Positions 1 to 9,354 are shown, counted from the stretch's first letter. The stretch: DNA of 64,000 nucleotides from Sphingomonadaceae bacterium (GCA_020850455.1 JADZEQ010000001.1:1-64000); one strand, 5' to 3'. Program-made: numbers and translations. The notes: generated from the letters alone by a model not told the origin.

Positions 1-2
1 CC

Positions 3-935
3 AAGGCGTTCATCGCCGAACGCGGCTGGGACACCGCGATCACGGTCGGCTCGGGAAACGCCACGCGGCCGGCGCTGCTGACCGGCAGCAATGTCGAGAT
101 CTTCACCACCCTGACCGGGAAGCGATCACGGGTCGGCAGCGTCGAGGAAATCCTCGGCGACAAGGGGTTTGGCCGGCTGACGCGGCCGTTCATCCGCGAC
201 GAGACGGGAGCCGCCGATGCCGCGCAACGAGCCGCCGAGGCTCGTTTGGATCGGGCACGGCGCGAGATTTGCCGCAGCGGCCTCACGCTCCGTTGCGAGC
301 GCGGCGAGCACGCCGCCGATGGCGCGCCGGTCTGGCGGGTCTGGCTGATCCCGTCCAAACCGCTGCCCCTTACCGGGCTCAGTGCGCTGCGAGTTTGGCC
401 GATCACGCGGGGCGAAGGACATGCGCGCGATCTGCTGGAGCCGCTCCGGCAGGGACAGCCCGCCGACCTTGGCGCAATGCCCTTGGTCGACCTTACCCGG
501 TTCCTCGCCTGTCACCTGACGGACGAGACGGAAGACGTCTCGATCCTGTTCAGCACCGGGCTCATGATGGAGGGGCTGCCCGCAGAGCGCCACGCCGCCA
601 TCCTGCGCTGGGTGATCGACAGCAAGGACGCCTTCTTCCGCTATCTCCGCCTGCTCCTCTCCGAATTAGGCGATCCCTTCGCCGCCGCCCTCGCGGCGCA
701 GGACGGGTCAGGTCAGGGCGCTTGGCGCGCGGCAAGCGACGACGCGCCCATCCTCGAGGAGATGGTTCGGGCCTTCTGCCGGGGCGGAGACCAGCTTCGC
801 GCCATCGAACGGCTGATCGCACGCTTGGAAACCGGCGACGGTGACGATACCGATCCGATTCCGGCCGAGTTCCGCGCACTCTGGAATACATTCCGAATTG
901 CGCTCGCCACGCAGGATGCCGCGCATGCCGAATGA
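3..935 (+). CDS. Phospholipase-D-like (HKD-type) protein, 5' truncated by window start
   Basis: Open frame runs from the window edge: KAFIAERGWDTAITVGSGNATRPALLTGSNVEIFTTLTGKRSRVGS..., resembling the K..D...GSxN part of an HKD motif; 11-bp overlap with next CDS. Confidence 0.6.
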   Translation, partial: KAFIAERGWDTAITVGSGNATRPALLTGSNVEIFTTLTGKRSRVGSVEEILGDKGFGRLTRPFIRDETGAADAAQRAAEARLDRARREICRSGLTLRCERGEHAADGAPVWRVWLIPSKPLPLTGLSALRVWPITRGEGHARDLLEPLRQGQPADLGAMPLVDLTRFLACHLTDETEDVSILFSTGLMMEGLPAERHAAILRWVIDSKDAFFRYLRLLLSELGDPFAAALAAQDGSGQGAWRAASDDAPILEEMVRAFCRGGDQLRAIERLIARLETGDGDDTDPIPAEFRALWNTFRIALATQDAAHAE

Positions 936-3900
936 ACGGTTTCGCGCCGACGCGGCGCTCGCTCCCCTCAAGGTCTTTCAGCGGCGCACCGTCGACTACG
1001 TCTTCGATCGGCTCTACGGCCAGGACGATCCTGTCCGCCAGTTCCTGGTCGCCGACGAAGTCGGCCTCGGCAAGACGATGGTGGCGCGCGGGGTCATCGC
1101 CCGCATGATCGAACACCTGTGGGACAGCACCAAGCGGATCGACATCCTCTACATCTGCTCGAACCAGGCGATCGCCGCCCAGAACCTCAACCGGCTGAAC
1201 GTCCTCGGGCGGCGCGAGCTGGCCCTGCCGACCCGCATGACGCTCGTTCCCCTGCAACTGCGCGATCAGGCGGGCCTCGACGCCAACAGGGTGAACTTCA
1301 TCAGCCTGACGCCGGGCACGACCTTCGATCTGCGCTCCGCGACGGGCGTGACGCAGGAGCGCGCCTTGCTGTTCCATCTCCTGCGCGACCTCGTTACGCG
1401 CCCGCGCGGCCTGCACAATCTGTTGCAGGTCACGGCCGGCGTCGAGGGTTGGAACCGCGCCGTGGACAACCTCACCCTCGAAGGCGTCGACAAGCGCATC
1501 ATCGAGCGTTTCCGCCGCGACGTGCAGGCGGATCGCGACATCTTCGAGGAACTCGAACGGATTTGCGAACTCTTCCCGCGCCGCCGGGACACCTATCCCG
1601 CAGAAATGACACAGCCCCGCAACAGCCTGGTCGCCCGGCTCCGCGCCAAGCTGTCCCACGCCTGCGTGGATGCGCTGCAACCCGACCTCATCATCATGGA
1701 CGAGTTCCAGCGGTTTCGGGATTTGCTGCATGGCGACAGCGACGCGGCGATCCTCGCGCGCGAACTGTTCGACTACTCGGGAGGCGACGGGCACGCCGCC
1801 CGCACCTTGCTGCTCTCCGCCACACCCTACCGAATGCTCACGCTCGCCGGCGACGAGCCCGACGAAGGCGACCACTATCAGGACTTCCTTGAGACTCTGA
1901 GTTTCCTCTACGGCCGGGAAAAGGGGCCGGAGGTGGCAGCCACGCTGGCGCGTGAAATGCGCGCCTTCCGCGGCCTCTTGCATGCCCTGCCACAGTCACA
2001 TGCCTCAGCGGTCGAAACCCGCCAGACCATCGAACGGCGCCTGCGCCGTGTGATCGCCCGAACCGAGCGGGTCGCATCCACAGTCGAGCGCGACTCCATG
2101 ATGAGCGAGCCTCCCATCACGGTCTCGATCGCGCCCGCCGACCTTGCGCAGGCATCCGCCGTTTCTCAGGTGGCGCGCACACTTGATGCGCCGGAGATCA
2201 TCGAATACTGGAAGTCTTCGCCCTATCTGCTTAATTTCATGCGCCACTACAGCCTGAAGCGGCTGCTGGAAGACCAGATCGACGCGCCTTCGGCCGTGCT
2301 CCGCACCGCAATCCAGGCGGCTCGACCGGCCATGCTCGATCACGACGCCATCGACGCCTATGCGCCGCTGGACCCGGCCAACGGTCGCATGCGCGCGATC
2401 ATGGACGACATCTTCGGCCAGCATCTGGAACAGAACCTCTGGATACCCGCCGCCATGCCCTATTACGGCGAGGCGCGAGCCGGGGCGCCGCTGACCAAGG
2501 CGCTGATATTTTCGTCCTGGTCCATGGTGCCCGATGCGGTCGCAGCCCTGCTGTCCTACGAAGCCGAACGGCGCATGGGCGTCGGCGAATCCGGCCGGCG
2601 CTATTTCGAGCAGCATCGCCTGCGTCCCTTGCAGTTCCGGCAGGATCATGGCCGGCTCGCGGGTCTGCGCGCGCTGCTGCTGATCTATCCCTCGCCGGCG
2701 CTGGCCGAGCTGGCCGATCCGCTGGCGGTGTTCAGCGAGACGGGGGTCGCCTTGTCGCTGGAGGGAATGCGCTCCGCTGTGGGCGACCGCCTCAAGCCCG
2801 CCCTCGGTGCTTTGAAGGAAGGCGCGGTGTCGCATCAGGACGCGCACAGCGCCGAGTGGGCCGCCCCAGCCGTGATCGATGACCTGCTGGGCGCGCGATC
2901 CCGCGCCTGGCTGGAAGCGACCCACGGCATGCGCGCCCTGGCGAGCGAAGACGCCTTCCACGATCATATCACCGAACTGGCGGCAGCGGTGAAGACGCAC
3001 GACATCGGCGCTTTGTCCGACGATCTTTCGGACCTGCTGGTTGACGTCGCGCTCGGCAGTCCGGCCGTCTGCGCGCTTCGCGCCCTCAAGCGGATCGCGC
3101 CCGAGCTGGCGTGGGATGACCCACGCTTGCTCAGCGCCGCCGCTGAAGTCGCCTGGTCGTTCCGGGCGCTGTTCAATCAGCATGACGCGGTCGCCTTGCT
3201 GAGACGGGATACCGACGATCACTACTGGCGCCGCGTGCTGGCCTATTGCGCCCAGCACAACCTACAGGCCGTCCTGGACGAATACGCACATTACCTCGTC
3301 GATGCCGAAGGTCTCGGCGCCCGCCCAGCCGACGACCGCGCAATCGGTGTCGCTCGCGCCATGGCCCAGGCCCTCGCTATCCGCCCGTCGCAGATCGACG
3401 TCGATGACGTGCAGGTCGATGGAGAGTCCCTCGCCATCAGCAAGTTCCAGATGCGCGGACGCTTCGCGATGCGGCTCGCCGACTACAAGGACGAAGACGG
3501 CGCCGTCGCGCGGCTCGGAGGCGTGCGTGACGCCTTCAACTCACCGTTCCGGCCGTTCGTTCTCGCCACCACGTCAGTCGGCCAGGAAGGGCTGGACTTC
3601 CATCCCTATTGCTATCGCGTCTATCACTGGAACTTGCCGGGCAACCCGGTGGACCTCGAGCAGCGCGAAGGCCGCGTCCACCGCTTCAAGGGCCATGCCG
3701 TGCGCCTCAATCTGGCCGAACGCCAGGCCGCGGTCGTCAGGGGCCGTGGGCAGGCTCCTGACGATCCGTGGAAGCTGATGTTCGAGCACGCGCGATCCGA
3801 GGCGGCGGTCGACACCGATCTCATCCCCTATTGGATCTACGAAGGTTCCGTGCGCGTCGAACGGCGCGTGCCGATGCTGCCGTTCAGTCGGGAAGTCACG

Positions 3901-4074
3901 CGACTCGCCTGGCTCAAACGCAGCCTCACGGTCTATCGACTGGCCTTCGGTCAACCGCGGCAGGACGATCTGCTCGACTACCTGCAAACCCTGGCCGGCG
4001 ACGGCATGGACTCCAACCTGCTTACAGACCTGCAAATTCGGCTTGAGCCAGAGGTGTTCGACAGGTCAGCGTGA
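925..4074 (+). CDS. SF2/SNF2-type helicase (large, defence-island style)
   Basis: Walker A DEVGLGKT, Walker B IIMDEFQ, LLLSATPYRM (motif III), TSVGQEGLDFH and QREGRVHRFKGH (motifs V/VI); ATG 925 overlaps upstream stop by 11 bp. Confidence 0.88.
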   Translation: MPNERFRADAALAPLKVFQRRTVDYVFDRLYGQDDPVRQFLVADEVGLGKTMVARGVIARMIEHLWDSTKRIDILYICSNQAIAAQNLNRLNVLGRRELALPTRMTLVPLQLRDQAGLDANRVNFISLTPGTTFDLRSATGVTQERALLFHLLRDLVTRPRGLHNLLQVTAGVEGWNRAVDNLTLEGVDKRIIERFRRDVQADRDIFEELERICELFPRRRDTYPAEMTQPRNSLVARLRAKLSHACVDALQPDLIIMDEFQRFRDLLHGDSDAAILARELFDYSGGDGHAARTLLLSATPYRMLTLAGDEPDEGDHYQDFLETLSFLYGREKGPEVAATLAREMRAFRGLLHALPQSHASAVETRQTIERRLRRVIARTERVASTVERDSMMSEPPITVSIAPADLAQASAVSQVARTLDAPEIIEYWKSSPYLLNFMRHYSLKRLLEDQIDAPSAVLRTAIQAARPAMLDHDAIDAYAPLDPANGRMRAIMDDIFGQHLEQNLWIPAAMPYYGEARAGAPLTKALIFSSWSMVPDAVAALLSYEAERRMGVGESGRRYFEQHRLRPLQFRQDHGRLAGLRALLLIYPSPALAELADPLAVFSETGVALSLEGMRSAVGDRLKPALGALKEGAVSHQDAHSAEWAAPAVIDDLLGARSRAWLEATHGMRALASEDAFHDHITELAAAVKTHDIGALSDDLSDLLVDVALGSPAVCALRALKRIAPELAWDDPRLLSAAAEVAWSFRALFNQHDAVALLRRDTDDHYWRRVLAYCAQHNLQAVLDEYAHYLVDAEGLGARPADDRAIGVARAMAQALAIRPSQIDVDDVQVDGESLAISKFQMRGRFAMRLADYKDEDGAVARLGGVRDAFNSPFRPFVLATTSVGQEGLDFHPYCYRVYHWNLPGNPVDLEQREGRVHRFKGHAVRLNLAERQAAVVRGRGQAPDDPWKLMFEHARSEAAVDTDLIPYWIYEGSVRVERRVPMLPFSREVTRLAWLKRSLTVYRLAFGQPRQDDLLDYLQTLAGDGMDSNLLTDLQIRLEPEVFDRSA

Positions 4075-4351
4075 TGACCTCACCGCGCCTGGCTCCAAAT
4101 GCCCTTTGCGAGCGGGAAGACCACTCCGCATCCCCGCCTATTTATATCCCCCACCATCCGCCTTCCCTACGCCTGACGATTGATACTTCCCTGGCCACTT
4201 CCGCGCGCTCATGTTCGGTCGTGCAGGAGCGTGCGCCATCGAGGCTCGGCCAGCGTGTCGGTGCCTCTGAATGACCAACGCATTGCGAAATGCGTCTCGC
4301 GCTCGACCATCAACGATTATCAGCGGCAGGTCTCCTGCCGAAGGAGGGCGT

Positions 4352-4582
4352 ATGTCAGAGACCACATTCCTCACGCCGGAAGAGGTGGCCGAACGCTATC
4401 GTGGCAGCGTTTCGGTCGGCACCCTTCGGAACTGGCGTGCGATGAAGATCGGGCCGTCGTTCGTAAAAATCGGCAAAGCGGTGCTCTACCGGATCGACGA
4501 GCTTGAGGCGTGGGACGACAGGAATCGTGTGCAGTGCCGCGCCCCGAAGCGAATTGAGCAAAGCGCCATGGATCGAGCTTGA
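4352..4582 (+). CDS. Small helix-turn-helix (excisionase/MerR-like) protein
   Basis: MSETTFLTPEEVAERYRGSVSVGTLRNWRAMKIGPSFVKIGKAVLYRIDELEAW; AAGGAGGG SD upstream. Confidence 0.8.
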   Translation: MSETTFLTPEEVAERYRGSVSVGTLRNWRAMKIGPSFVKIGKAVLYRIDELEAWDDRNRVQCRAPKRIEQSAMDRA

Positions 4583-4808
4583 TCGCTCAGCACAAATGGC
4601 GGGCGCGCCGGTTGGCGCTCCCGACGCGCCCGCCCGCCTTCGGTTCATGCGAGGCGAACCGCCCCTCATGCGGCTGGACCATATGACGGCCAGCCTGGTG
4701 GGCCTCATGCGGGTTCGCCGCCATTCCCACCGCCATGCTTGATCCGCCCCACGGTGCGGCTTCTCCCATGGTCCCCGCGCTTATCGGGTCCGGGTCCCCA
4801 TATCTGAC

Positions 4809-5744
4809 TCAGTCGCTCGGCGTTTTCGCAATCGGGCCGAGCGTGTCGATCTCGGCGATCTTCTGAAACTCGCTGAGATAGTCCTGCTGATGGGTCGCCA
4901 ACCAACGGACCACGCGATTGTTCGCAAGGAGCTTGGCGACGTATCCACGCGCGACGGTCAAATGCAGATTGTCGATGCCGTAGGTTTCCTCGACCGACTT
5001 GACCTGCGTCTGGAGCGCCGCCAGTTCCCGCTCCATCCGGGCGATCTGTTGACCCGAGGGCGTCGGCTTGCCGCCGCCCTTTCCCCTCTTGGTGGCGGCA
5101 AGCTGGTTTTCGGATGTCGCCGCGCGCAACGCGCGGGCAAACATGACCGTGAAATTGTTCTGGCCGATCATCAGATCGGCGGCTTCGATCTGCCGCACGG
5201 CCGTCATCTGACGCAGAATGTCGAACACCTTCATCGAGCAAGGCGTGTCTTTCAGCATCTCGGCCGCCTCGGGGCTGATCCCTTCCAGCAGCCGGAAACG
5301 CCGCAGCACTGACTCGACCTGGAGGTTCAGGGCCGCGGCGATGTCGGCGGATGACACGCCTCGATCCATCGCGCGCGCAATCATCCGGTGCTCCTGGATC
5401 GGCGGGATGCGGTTGACGCGCTTGTTGTAGGTATAGGTGTCGTCGTCAGAGGCGAGCAGGCACTCCACCTCAGCGATGCCGAGTTCCTTCAGCGCTTCCA
5501 GCCGAAGGTGGCCATCCAGGAGAAACCAGGTTCCGGCGTTATTTTCATCCGCCATAACGACGGGCGCTTCGATCAGGCCGATCGCCTTGATGGAACTCAG
5601 AACCTGCGAATAGGACCGGCTCGCCTTGGCGCCGTTCGGCAACGTCTTGAGCGGAACGATCGCCGCGACAGGAATTGTCAGGAAGTCTCGGTCGAAGGCG
5701 AGATGAATACGCCCATCCTCCCGTCCCCTCGGTTCATCTGCCAT
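4809..5744 (-). CDS. ParB/RepB-like protein (ParB N-terminal domain plus RepB-like C-terminal region), copy 2
   Basis: ParB-like core ...LLDGHLRLEALKELG...NRIPPIQEHRMIARAMDRGVSSADIAAALNL; overlaps preceding RepB-like gene by 11 bp. Confidence 0.8.
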   Translation of the reverse strand: MADEPRGREDGRIHLAFDRDFLTIPVAAIVPLKTLPNGAKASRSYSQVLSSIKAIGLIEAPVVMADENNAGTWFLLDGHLRLEALKELGIAEVECLLASDDDTYTYNKRVNRIPPIQEHRMIARAMDRGVSSADIAAALNLQVESVLRRFRLLEGISPEAAEMLKDTPCSMKVFDILRQMTAVRQIEAADLMIGQNNFTVMFARALRAATSENQLAATKRGKGGGKPTPSGQQIARMERELAALQTQVKSVEETYGIDNLHLTVARGYVAKLLANNRVVRWLATHQQDYLSEFQKIAEIDTLGPIAKTPSD

Positions 5745-6642
5745 GATCGCCTCCCGAAACGCGGACTTTGAGCGCCCGAGGCATGGTCGCCAGCCCTTCC
5801 GCTCTCAGCAGATTGATGAAGCCGTCGTTGGCGAGCAGATCCTTCAGCGCCTCGACGACGAACAGCAGGCGGGTCTGCGTGAAATCCGACTTCTTGACGA
5901 GCAGGCGCTGCTTTTCCGCTTCACGTTGATAGACCTGCATGAGATCGGCGGCGGTCATTCGGCGGACCCCGGTGCCTTTCCGACCCAACCGCCCGGCAGG
6001 CAAACCTCCCTTGCGCTGGCTTCGCATCCGCATGTCGAGCAGGCGGCGGACGGCGGCCAGCTTCTTGCCCCTGAGCTTGCCGGTCTCATAGGCGTCAAGG
6101 AGCAGATTCTGTGCCTCTTCCGTCTCCGACTTGGAAATCTCCATCGCCAAGGTGATCGGAATGAGCCCGGTTTCGACCGCGGCCACCAACCGTTCCTCGC
6201 CGCGCTCAAGAAGCGAAGCGATCATATTCACCCAGGACGCCCCGACGCCGATCTTCTCGGCGATCTCGGCATCGCTATAGCCGCGAGACCTCAGAGCGCC
6301 GATCTCTTTCATGACGTCTATGGGCCGTGGGGTGCGCCGCGCGATATTCTCGACCAGGCTCATCACGAGACACTCGCTCTCGCTGGCCTCGATCACCACG
6401 GCCGGAATCTCCGTCTGACCCAGCATCTGGAAGGCTTCCAGCCGGCCTTCGCCACAGACGAGATCGTATCTCGGCCCCCCGGCGCCATCACGGCGGCTCA
6501 CCGTGATCGGACGCTTCAGGCCGATGGCCTCAATGTTGTTCACGATCTCCCGGTGCTGACGCTTGTTGCGCGCGCGTGGATTCAGAACGGTGATCCGGGA
6601 GATCGGGATCATTTCGACCCTGTTCGGACGGACGGCAGGCAT
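5734..6642 (-). CDS. ParB/RepB-like protein, copy 1
   Basis: ISRITVLNPRARNKRQHREIVNNIEAIGLKRPITVSRR...LVCGEGRLEAFQMLG...SLVENIARR (ParB boxes); start ATG overlaps recombinase stop (TGATG). Confidence 0.85.
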   Translation of the reverse strand: MPAVRPNRVEMIPISRITVLNPRARNKRQHREIVNNIEAIGLKRPITVSRRDGAGGPRYDLVCGEGRLEAFQMLGQTEIPAVVIEASESECLVMSLVENIARRTPRPIDVMKEIGALRSRGYSDAEIAEKIGVGASWVNMIASLLERGEERLVAAVETGLIPITLAMEISKSETEEAQNLLLDAYETGKLRGKKLAAVRRLLDMRMRSQRKGGLPAGRLGRKGTGVRRMTAADLMQVYQREAEKQRLLVKKSDFTQTRLLFVVEALKDLLANDGFINLLRAEGLATMPRALKVRVSGGDHGR

Positions 6643-8207
6643 CAAGCGGCCTCCCCAAGAGGAATGGGCGTGGCAATGTCGTAGAGAAGCTCGAGGCCGT
6701 CGAAGCGATAAGCGTCGAGCCCGAGCGTATTCTCCTCTCCCAGCCGCAGCTTTTCGGAGAGCATGTCGATACGCGGGAACAGGTAGTAGTCGAACGGCGC
6801 GCGATTGGCGCTGTCCATTCGCACGACGATCGTGATGTCGGGCGCGAGCGAGGTGTCGAAGCGCAGATGCCACCGCAGCAGCCCGGTCGGCGTCTCGACG
6901 CATCGGGCCACCACCACCGAGAGGCTGAACTCGCCGTTGACGATCACCCGGTCGGTCTGAAGATCCTGCCAGGCGTCGCTACCCGCAGCCCGCAATCCGT
7001 CGAGCACCTCGCGGACGATTTCGGGATGGAGCTTACGCAGCTCGCGGTTGATTTCGACATATCGGTAGTCGCGATCCGGCGTGAAGCCCACGAGGCCGTA
7101 GGCGCGAAGCAGGCTGCCAAAGCGAGAGCTATAGGCGCTACTGGATGGCATCCCCTCGCATTCGTCGATGACGATGCCGGACAGCAAACCCCTCTGTTGG
7201 TAGAGCTTCCTCAGAGATTGGAGCATCTCCTCGTCACTCAAACGGAAGGAGCGCGCGCTGATGATGGTCTTGGCCGCCTCGAACAATTCCCGTTCGACGA
7301 CGGCCACGAAGGCGTCCGGCGACCTGATCCACATCTCGGGATCGTTCTGGACGCGCTTTTTCTTCAGCTTGAAGGAGCGACGATTCCATACGTTGTCGCC
7401 GACGTATTTCTCGTTGATCAGAATCTGATGGACCGTTCCCCTGGTCCAGGGTCGTCCAAGATCGGTCGGTAGGCCCCGTTGGTTGAGATCGGCAGCGATC
7501 TCCCGCTCGCTGTATCCCTGATGGACGAAGGCTTGGTAGATGCCGCGCACCAGATCGACTTCTTCCGCCGGGCCAAGCGTCAGGATCACCCGATCGGTCT
7601 GGATGCTCTTGTGCTCCCCACGGCCCAGAACCCCTTTGATGACGCCATGCTCGTCGATCAGGGTTCGGCGGAGACCGAAGCCGGCGGGTCCGCCCTGACG
7701 GTAGCCCTTCTCGATCAGCCGGCCCTGGCCCGCAAAGACCTTGGTCGATAGCTCGCGGCTATACTCGCCGGCCATCGCACGCTTGACGCCTTTAACGATG
7801 GTCGAGATTGGGCTGCCATCGTTGTCGAATTGCTCCGCGCAATACTCGACGGCGATGCCGGCGCGTCGGCAGATATACTCGTAATAGGCGCTCTCGTCGG
7901 CATCCTGAAAACGCCCCCAGCGGCTGACGTCATAGACGAGAACCAAGGTGAAATCGGTGTTCCCGGACTGCACGTCCTCGATGAGCTGTCTGAGCGCGTC
8001 GCGTCCCTCAATCTTGAGGCCGCTTTTCCCCGCATCGGCATAGGTTCTGACGATCTCTATTCCGCGGGCTTCAGCATACTGCTTGATCGCGTCGGACTGG
8101 TTTTCGGTCGAATATTTTTGATGGTCCGTGGACATGCGGACGTATTCGGCAGCCCGAAGAGGACGTTCAGGCTGCCCTGACCGATCATCGTAAAGTCGCT
8201 GGCCCAT
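6642..8207 (-). CDS. Large serine recombinase (recombinase family protein)
   Basis: N-terminal resolvase domain RAAEYVRMSTDHQKYSTENQSDAIKQYAEARGIEIV...SGLKIEGRDALRQLIEDV...VYDVSRWGR plus Recombinase domain and long C-terminus. Confidence 0.93.
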   Translation of the reverse strand: MGQRLYDDRSGQPERPLRAAEYVRMSTDHQKYSTENQSDAIKQYAEARGIEIVRTYADAGKSGLKIEGRDALRQLIEDVQSGNTDFTLVLVYDVSRWGRFQDADESAYYEYICRRAGIAVEYCAEQFDNDGSPISTIVKGVKRAMAGEYSRELSTKVFAGQGRLIEKGYRQGGPAGFGLRRTLIDEHGVIKGVLGRGEHKSIQTDRVILTLGPAEEVDLVRGIYQAFVHQGYSEREIAADLNQRGLPTDLGRPWTRGTVHQILINEKYVGDNVWNRRSFKLKKKRVQNDPEMWIRSPDAFVAVVERELFEAAKTIISARSFRLSDEEMLQSLRKLYQQRGLLSGIVIDECEGMPSSSAYSSRFGSLLRAYGLVGFTPDRDYRYVEINRELRKLHPEIVREVLDGLRAAGSDAWQDLQTDRVIVNGEFSLSVVVARCVETPTGLLRWHLRFDTSLAPDITIVVRMDSANRAPFDYYLFPRIDMLSEKLRLGEENTLGLDAYRFDGLELLYDIATPIPLGEAA

Positions 8208-8231
8208 CACATTACGCCCTCCCGAAATTGC

Positions 8232-8262
8232 CTGCGGCGGTCCGGGCGACCTACCGCCGCAG
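8232..8262. promoter_or_regulatory. Perfect 10-bp inverted repeat (CTGCGGCGGT-N11-ACCGCCGCAG) in the recombinase/HTH divergent intergenic region
   Basis: Read directly from sequence. Confidence 0.6.
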
Positions 8263-8325
8263 CGCATGACGGGCCTCTGCCGCCACTCCGCACGGAAACC
8301 AGTTTAGCTGCGGAGAAAACGGAAG

Positions 8326-8955
8326 ATGTTGCCGAAAACGGGCAGGAAATTTCCCCTATGGACAGGCGTTCTTGGCGGACGTGACACCTACGCGCAGACC
8401 ATCGCCGAGCTGCTGCGCAAAGAGCATGGAGACAGCCGCCGTGCGATCAAGCAGCTCATGCGTCAGACGGATGCGAGCGAGAGGACCGTGAAGCATTGGC
8501 TCTCAGCGCAGCACGGGCCGGATACGGTGTATTTCCTGCGCCTGGTGGTTTCGTCGCCCGTCATCAGGGCCTTTGTTCTCGGCCTGCTCGAAGGCCCGGC
8601 GGCGATCCCGTTGACCGGCCCGGTGGATCGCATATCGCTTGCCAGAGCCCGTGAAGCCTATGCGGCCGGCGAAGCCGCTGGCGGACGTTCAGCAACGGGT
8701 GCGCGAGAATATGACCCTGAACGTGTCCCTGAACGTGACCCTATAAATGTCCCTGATCGGGCAGAGATCAATGAGCGACAACGCTGGTTTCTGAGCCGAG
8801 TCGTCGAGGGTCGATGCGACGCTAGGGAGATCGCAGCTGTTTGGGACGTCAGTCTGAAAACCGCGCGACGGGACATCGCCGCGCTCAAGGCGGCAGATCT
8901 CATATGCTATGTTGGATCACGGAGGAAAGGGCGGTATCGCAAGACGACTGGATAG
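8326..8955 (+). CDS. HTH-containing putative regulator (N-terminal HTH-like, C-terminal winged-helix/DeoR-like)
   Basis: NERQRWFLSRVVEGRCDAREIAAVWDVSLKTARRDIAALKAADLICYVGSRRKGRYR; divergent from recombinase. Confidence 0.6.
   Translation: MLPKTGRKFPLWTGVLGGRDTYAQTIAELLRKEHGDSRRAIKQLMRQTDASERTVKHWLSAQHGPDTVYFLRLVVSSPVIRAFVLGLLEGPAAIPLTGPVDRISLARAREAYAAGEAAGGRSATGAREYDPERVPERDPINVPDRAEINERQRWFLSRVVEGRCDAREIAAVWDVSLKTARRDIAALKAADLICYVGSRRKGRYRKTTG
8712..8759 (+). repeat. Four tandem degenerate 12-mers (consensus TGWCCCTGAACG) inside the HTH gene
   Basis: TGACCCTGAACG TGTCCCTGAACG TGACCCTATAAA TGTCCCTGATCG. Confidence 0.85.
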
Positions 8956-9189: not shown

Positions 9190-9354
9190 ATGATCCACAA
9201 TCACCCCAGCGGCGACCCCAGCCCCAGCAAGCAGGACATATTGATGACGCGCGAATTGGCCGAAAGCGCCAAAAGGCTCAGCATCAGCCTGCATGACCAT
9301 GTCATCATCGGGCGCGAAGGACATAGCAGCCTCAAATCGCTTGGGCTGTTTTAA
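9190..9354 (+). pseudogene. radC: 3' fragment of radC (JAB/MPN domain C-terminus), truncated by island insertion
   Basis: [53 protein letters not shown] matches RadC C-terminus; upstream frame does not look like RadC. Confidence 0.88.

Follow-up and report, generated by a model that had tools for sequence, protein, structure and literature searches.

The left end of the window, as we call the whole 64,000-nucleotide stretch of a Sphingomonadaceae bacterium genome analyzed here, carries the 3' part of a gene for a PLD-family nuclease and, overlapping it, a complete gene for a large helicase, followed by the rest of the right-hand part of an integrative island that ends within radC (Table 1). 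By their profile matches, the two proteins are ZacB and ZacC of Azaca, an already named anti-phage system.

Table 1. Features at the left end of the window, with the basis of each assignment
Feature	Position	Strand	Basis and remarks
ZacB, C-terminal half, PLD-family nuclease	3..935	+	PADLOC PDLC03829; includes second HxK...N half-site; 5' end of gene beyond contig end
ZacC, complete SF2/SNF2-type helicase, ~1050 aa	925..4074	+	PADLOC PDLC03830; conserved motifs
Small helix-turn-helix protein, HTH_17, excisionase-like	4271..4582	+	Pfam PF12728
RepB/ParB-like island protein	4809..5744	-	Pfam PF07506, E 2e-46
ParB/RepB-like island protein	5734..6903	-	Pfam PF02195, PF07506; true start probably further inside the frame
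Large serine recombinase of the island	6642..8267	-	Pfam Resolvase + Recombinase
HTH regulator, last island gene	8326..8955	+	Pfam PF08220
Interrupted radC, 3' part	9201..9354	+	RadC profile; island/chromosome junction at ~9195-9206

In the PADLOC profile search, the ZacB fragment aligned to positions 300-584 of its 586-position model (E 1.5e-64), and ZacC aligned with residues 34-1070 to positions 4-1016 of 1019 (E 0, 1148 bits). The nuclease frame is open from the first base to its stop at 935, and the helicase frame spans 841-4074; its outermost start, GTG 841, was rejected because homologs start at ATG 925 or 916. With ATG 925 as the likely start, the two genes overlap by 11 bp (20 bp if ATG 916 is used). 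Both this overlap of a PLD-like C-terminus with a large helicase and the helicase motifs had been described in a first-pass annotation, and they are real: DEVGLGKT, DEFQ, SATPYRM and QREGRVHRF are all found in ZacC, and the core residues of Walker A, DEFQ, SAT and motif VI are kept across 15 diverse ZacC sequences, some of which have identities well under 50%. Pfam recognizes only the DEAD and Helicase_C domains in the protein. The annotation was also right to see a PLD-helicase defence module, but it took the pair for a candidate system and listed a match to a named system as speaking against its proposal; PADLOC returns Azaca (ZacABC). The original paper on this system is that of Millman et al. 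(2022). Azaca and ZacC are named in PMC12278908, and a PLD domain in Azaca in PMC10952713.

In the window, the visible portion of the PLD part of ZacB starts at the Lys in the second HxK half-site (KAFIAERGWDTAITVGSGNATRPALLTGSNVE). In an alignment, complete ZacB proteins display two half-sites, FHPK...SRNLT..RSWD and LHAK...GSGNAT....NVE, which are of the form HxK...N. Because they are without the conserved Asp of classical HKD enzymes, the label 'HKD-like' given earlier is only loosely right. The structural PLD match that had been looked for is supportive only, since it comes from a weak model (pLDDT 54): the fold search yielded Tdp1, a member of the PLD superfamily, as the best plausible match (probability 0.97-0.99, E ~4e-3), standing among spurious DnaK matches. 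The AlphaFold model of ZacA has a pLDDT of 39, too low to be of use. Sequence searches of the PDB returned nothing credible for ZacC, ZacA or the AddB-like protein described below, and one weak match for ZacB, whose second HxK site aligns to a putative helicase (7clg, E 0.007). No relative of ZacA or of the AddB-like protein was found in the viral contigs searched; one phage-labelled contig carries a ZacC that is 31% identical.

The pair had further been read as island cargo, and indeed the locus lies inside an island inserted in radC, both halves of which are in the assembly (G000). Positions 3-76 of the RadC profile match at 726790-727011 of contig C5, and positions 69-120 at 9190-9345 of contig C1, to which the window belongs. 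Contig C5 stops 1.4 kb past its radC half, and this stretch carries a tyrosine recombinase. The radC halves thus lie on two contig ends and mark the two ends of one island, whose middle is unassembled and whose right part extends from window position 1 to ~9200. The insertion target is the Asn-His-Pro (HNHP) codons of radC, at 9195-9206 of the window and on C5 (L066:4990-5010). In a Rhodobacteraceae assembly (L030), the island DNA is identical to the window up to 9200 and then diverges within another radC, and L015 has the same junction. The tyrosine recombinase of the island is 78-100% identical in the four genomes sharing this right end; the other genomes searched contain nothing closer than ~31%. 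In one further locus (L069, 2164-2394), the same element sits in an unrelated gene, yqgE-like by eye, again at Asn-His-Pro codons. With the tyrosine recombinase at one island end and the large serine recombinase near the other, either could integrate the element. In two relatives (L067:9256-12689 and L068:9719-13152), this island carries a SIR2 + HerA pair at its left end, with PADLOC scores of 794 and 990 bits in L067, and the island therefore stacks several defence systems.

Window base 1 is also base 1 of contig C1, and the 5' part of zacB and the upstream genes are missing because the contig ends there, an assembly artefact. It had been suggested that the remaining genes lie to the left of the window; relatives do have them, but here the contig itself ends. 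The missing part was read from relatives (29 loci), of which the closest with more sequence are L006 from Novosphingobium aquimarinum, 98.6% identical in DNA over window 1-7372, and the plasmid locus L038 from Niveispirillum, 98.9% identical over window 1-5504. From left to right, near-identical islands contain an Hma operon, a WYL gene pointing towards it and, in the opposite direction, the genes for an AddB-like protein, an AddA-like protein, ZacA, ZacB and ZacC. Likewise, most relatives with enough sequence have ZacA (DUF6361) and the AddA-like and AddB-like proteins upstream, mostly with a divergent WYL gene; the proposed tabulation of homologs' neighbours thus gives ZacA, the AddAB-like pair, WYL and Hma, among others. 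In L006, the AddB-like and AddA-like genes overlap by 4 bp, a 4-bp gap separates the latter from zacA, and zacA/zacB and zacB/zacC overlap by 11 bp each, junctions typical of one operon. In this lineage, Azaca and the AddAB-like pair very probably form one operon with a divergent WYL repressor. Beyond the WYL gene, L006 has a complete Hma operon (HmaA, 1587 bits; HmaB; HmaC), and Hma genes are also found there in L030, L025, L013, L007, L011 and L038. In L019, this place is held by a type III R-M set and an HKD-Snf2 protein, and by gene order likewise in L016 and L012.

The AddA-like protein combines UvrD motors with a C-terminal PD-(D/E)XK domain, and its AddB-like partner is a PD-(D/E)XK protein. 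The former aligns to positions 11-1111 of the 1138-position profile TIGR02784 (addA_alphas; E 7e-80), yet because it scores 270 bits against a curated cut-off of 861 despite this whole-length alignment, we refer to it as AddA-like and not as AddA. The latter has a weak match to TIGR03623 only and belongs to no PADLOC family. Across ten diverse pairs, the residues of the nuclease and Walker motifs do not vary. In the genome of the window, the best match to the AddA-like protein is ~29-35% identical to it and is presumably the chromosomal AddA. The pair is rare, occurring in 7/385 alphaproteobacterial genomes and in 2/398 genomes of a phylum sample (at a limit of 1e-60, with the matches near E 0 and none near the limit), and 39 of the 60 plasmid records with an AddB-like protein are typed conjugative.

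Is this pair a part of the Azaca system or its neighbour? The close ZacC group comprises ~22 loci with the upstream side visible. Seventeen of these contain the AddAB-like pair (three of them, cut by contig ends, show the AddA-like gene only in part), two (L023 and L024) keep a C-terminal AddA-like remnant upstream of zacA, a natural loss of the pair with the Zac genes kept, and L014, L017, L027 and probably L029 are without it. Azaca without the pair is also found in Cronobacter (L040) and Halomarina (L044). Because these loci, L029 aside, have Azaca alone, Azaca as such does not require the pair. Together with the remnants, they speak for an alternative in which Azaca works alone and the AddAB-like genes are a separate inhabitant of defence islands, or a module for plasmid recombination/repair, that simply sits alongside Azaca and other systems; a distant clade (~40% identity), in which the pair occurs by itself on rhizobial plasmids, in some cases near repABC, points in the same direction. 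We regard this alternative as somewhat doubtful, if deserving of serious weight, since it must contend with the translation-coupled 4-bp junctions and with the same gene order in two ZacC groups: the pair also precedes ZacABC on plasmids of rhizobia, where ZacC shares only ~43% identity.

Direct junctions to genes of other systems likewise argue against a merely coincidental resident. The pair adjoins complete Shango genes in L051, from Sulfitobacter, and in L050 (SngC to AddB, 2 bp in both), as well as in L053, L074 and L083; it directly follows the cyclase-Cap2-Cap3 set of a CBASS-II system in L054 (98 bp) and directly precedes the gene of a PbeA-like helicase in L048, L051, L073 and L079 (14 bp at the PbeA-like junction). 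R-M genes are nearby in L052 and L084, and in L049 the pair follows a multiubiquitin-ThiF-DUF6527 set. In the AddA-like tree, the Azaca label changes five times, with at least four changes forced by well-supported branches, and the Shango label three times; a clade made up of the 17 loci of one close ZacC group is rejected (AU p 8e-64, with a log-likelihood lower by 407). In this small sample of loci, which were collected through their similarity to a few query sequences, the AddA-like tree thus conflicts with the ZacC tree, and the pair has therefore moved between systems.

Some of these neighbourhoods have features of their own. The CBASS-II locus on a Desulfosarcina plasmid (L054:4730-15432) contains the cyclase, Cap2, Cap3 and WYL genes and, within the stretch, no usual effector gene; the AddAB-like pair directly behind the set could replace the effector. 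On rhizobial plasmids (L041, L043, L047, L049, L056 and L087), the multiubiquitin-ThiF-DUF6527 set immediately upstream of the pair includes a large GajB-like UvrD helicase of its own. A transposase separates the set from the pair in L056, and in the L049 set, only the UvrD protein matched a PADLOC family.

A second alternative holds that the operon is truly broken here, with ZacB truncated, ZacA lost and the locus a decaying remnant. ZacA, the N-terminus of ZacB, HmaA and the AddA-like protein were searched for in the assembly and none was found, of which the first two favour decay, as does the presence of the same island in L030 without most of zacC. However, the zacB frame reaches the first contig base without a stop codon, and the second half of the island likewise stops at a contig end, as in an assembly gap. 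Given also that L004 and L005 are broken close to this point and that L006 and L038 have the upstream genes, a decaying locus is unlikely. ZacA, short of whose locus the contig ends, is present in complete relatives such as L006 and L019, and from the relatives, the AddAB-like genes would be expected in the window's own genome as well. A weak ZacB match at G000:C1:289301, which covers 59 profile positions (E 4e-4) within a frame of 407 aa, was attributed to a different protein. Assembly breaks inside zacB/zacC are found at window 1, at the first base of L004 and of L005 (window 290 and 326, respectively) and in L020 and L022 (window 1435 and 1447), perhaps because several community members carry near-identical island copies. 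Relative to window 2081-4940, the otherwise near-identical island of L030 carries a deletion of the 3' half of zacC together with the next gene. The case shows how a contig end inside a known defence system can make two genes look like a novelty.

Lastly, a DISARM-like or Mokosh-like system, which would likewise combine PLD proteins with helicases, is very improbable: ZacC resembles DrmD weakly around motif VI (E 5e-11, one ~45-residue stretch) and scores 40 bits against it, compared with 1148 bits over the full length of the ZacC model, no MkoA, MkoB or MkoC model matched either window protein, and, as the first-pass annotation had already judged for canonical DISARM, there is no full-length Drm match, with DrmB (DUF1998), DrmA/DrmD and a methylase absent from the operon of the scanned complete relative. 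The DrmD, DpdE and Brx helicase models match ZacC over short stretches only, at ~40 bits or less.

We thus favour, with a probability of about 0.7, the reading of the locus as the right-hand part of an Azaca operon on an integrative radC island, equipped with an AddAB-like pair and acting as follows. In the literature searched, no published mechanism of Azaca was found, and we infer every step. By family, ZacC belongs to the DNA translocases and ZacB to the phosphodiesterases, and the simplest reading is that of a sensor-translocase positioning a nuclease, as in Hachiman (PMC12278908). ZacC, being SNF2-type, would translocate on incoming double-stranded DNA and position ZacA/ZacB, and ZacB, as a Tdp1-like PLD phosphodiesterase, would cut the foreign DNA. 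The AddAB-like pair would enter at the DNA ends and degrade both strands, and single-stranded DNA arising in this process may lift repression by the WYL protein and lead to higher expression. WYL repressors of this type control defence operons. According to a title in the reference list of PMC13373217, they sense single-stranded DNA; at this locus, such a role is putative.

Phages often block host RecBCD/AddAB (PMC12407980), and a diverged second AddAB copy could therefore stand in. We tentatively propose, at a little less than even odds, that the WYL-linked AddAB-like pair is an exchangeable mobile module that carries out or completes DNA destruction for Azaca, Shango, CBASS-II and PbeA-like systems, and possibly a stand-in for a host nuclease disabled by phages. 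If this is true, a second, mobile AddAB plugs into otherwise unrelated defence systems. Its occurrence in both Shango and CBASS loci suggests that several systems with names of their own share a single exchangeable nuclease module, and in the Azaca operon, the pair offers a concrete biochemical handle: ends, strand degradation and single-stranded DNA.

Compared with known systems, Azaca itself is not new: of its profiles (PDLC03828-03830), those for ZacB and ZacC match here, the latter over the full length, and complete relatives share the order ZacA-ZacB-ZacC with DUF6361, PLD and helicase domains. Whereas PADLOC defines Azaca by three named genes, zacABC here follow an AddB-like/AddA-like pair in one operon with a divergent WYL gene. 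As far as we checked, this exchangeable partner is apparently undescribed; no description of the pair was found in literature and family libraries of 2023-2026, an absence that is no proof of novelty. With chromosomal AddAB, the pair shares an AddA-like protein alignable over its whole length, with UvrD motors and PD-(D/E)XK domain, and a PD-(D/E)XK partner, but it is island-borne, rare and below the TIGR02784 cut-off. Shango (SngABC) and CBASS type II have the pair directly adjacent in other loci, and Hma and BREX lie behind a WYL gene facing it in others; all four differ in having their own sensor or effector genes, linked only through the shared partner. Finally, Gabija, Hachiman and other helicase-nuclease defences likewise direct a helicase or ATPase motor and a nuclease at foreign or damaged DNA (PMC12278908, PMC12407980), but they are built from other protein families, whereas here two helicase-nuclease pairs stand in one operon.
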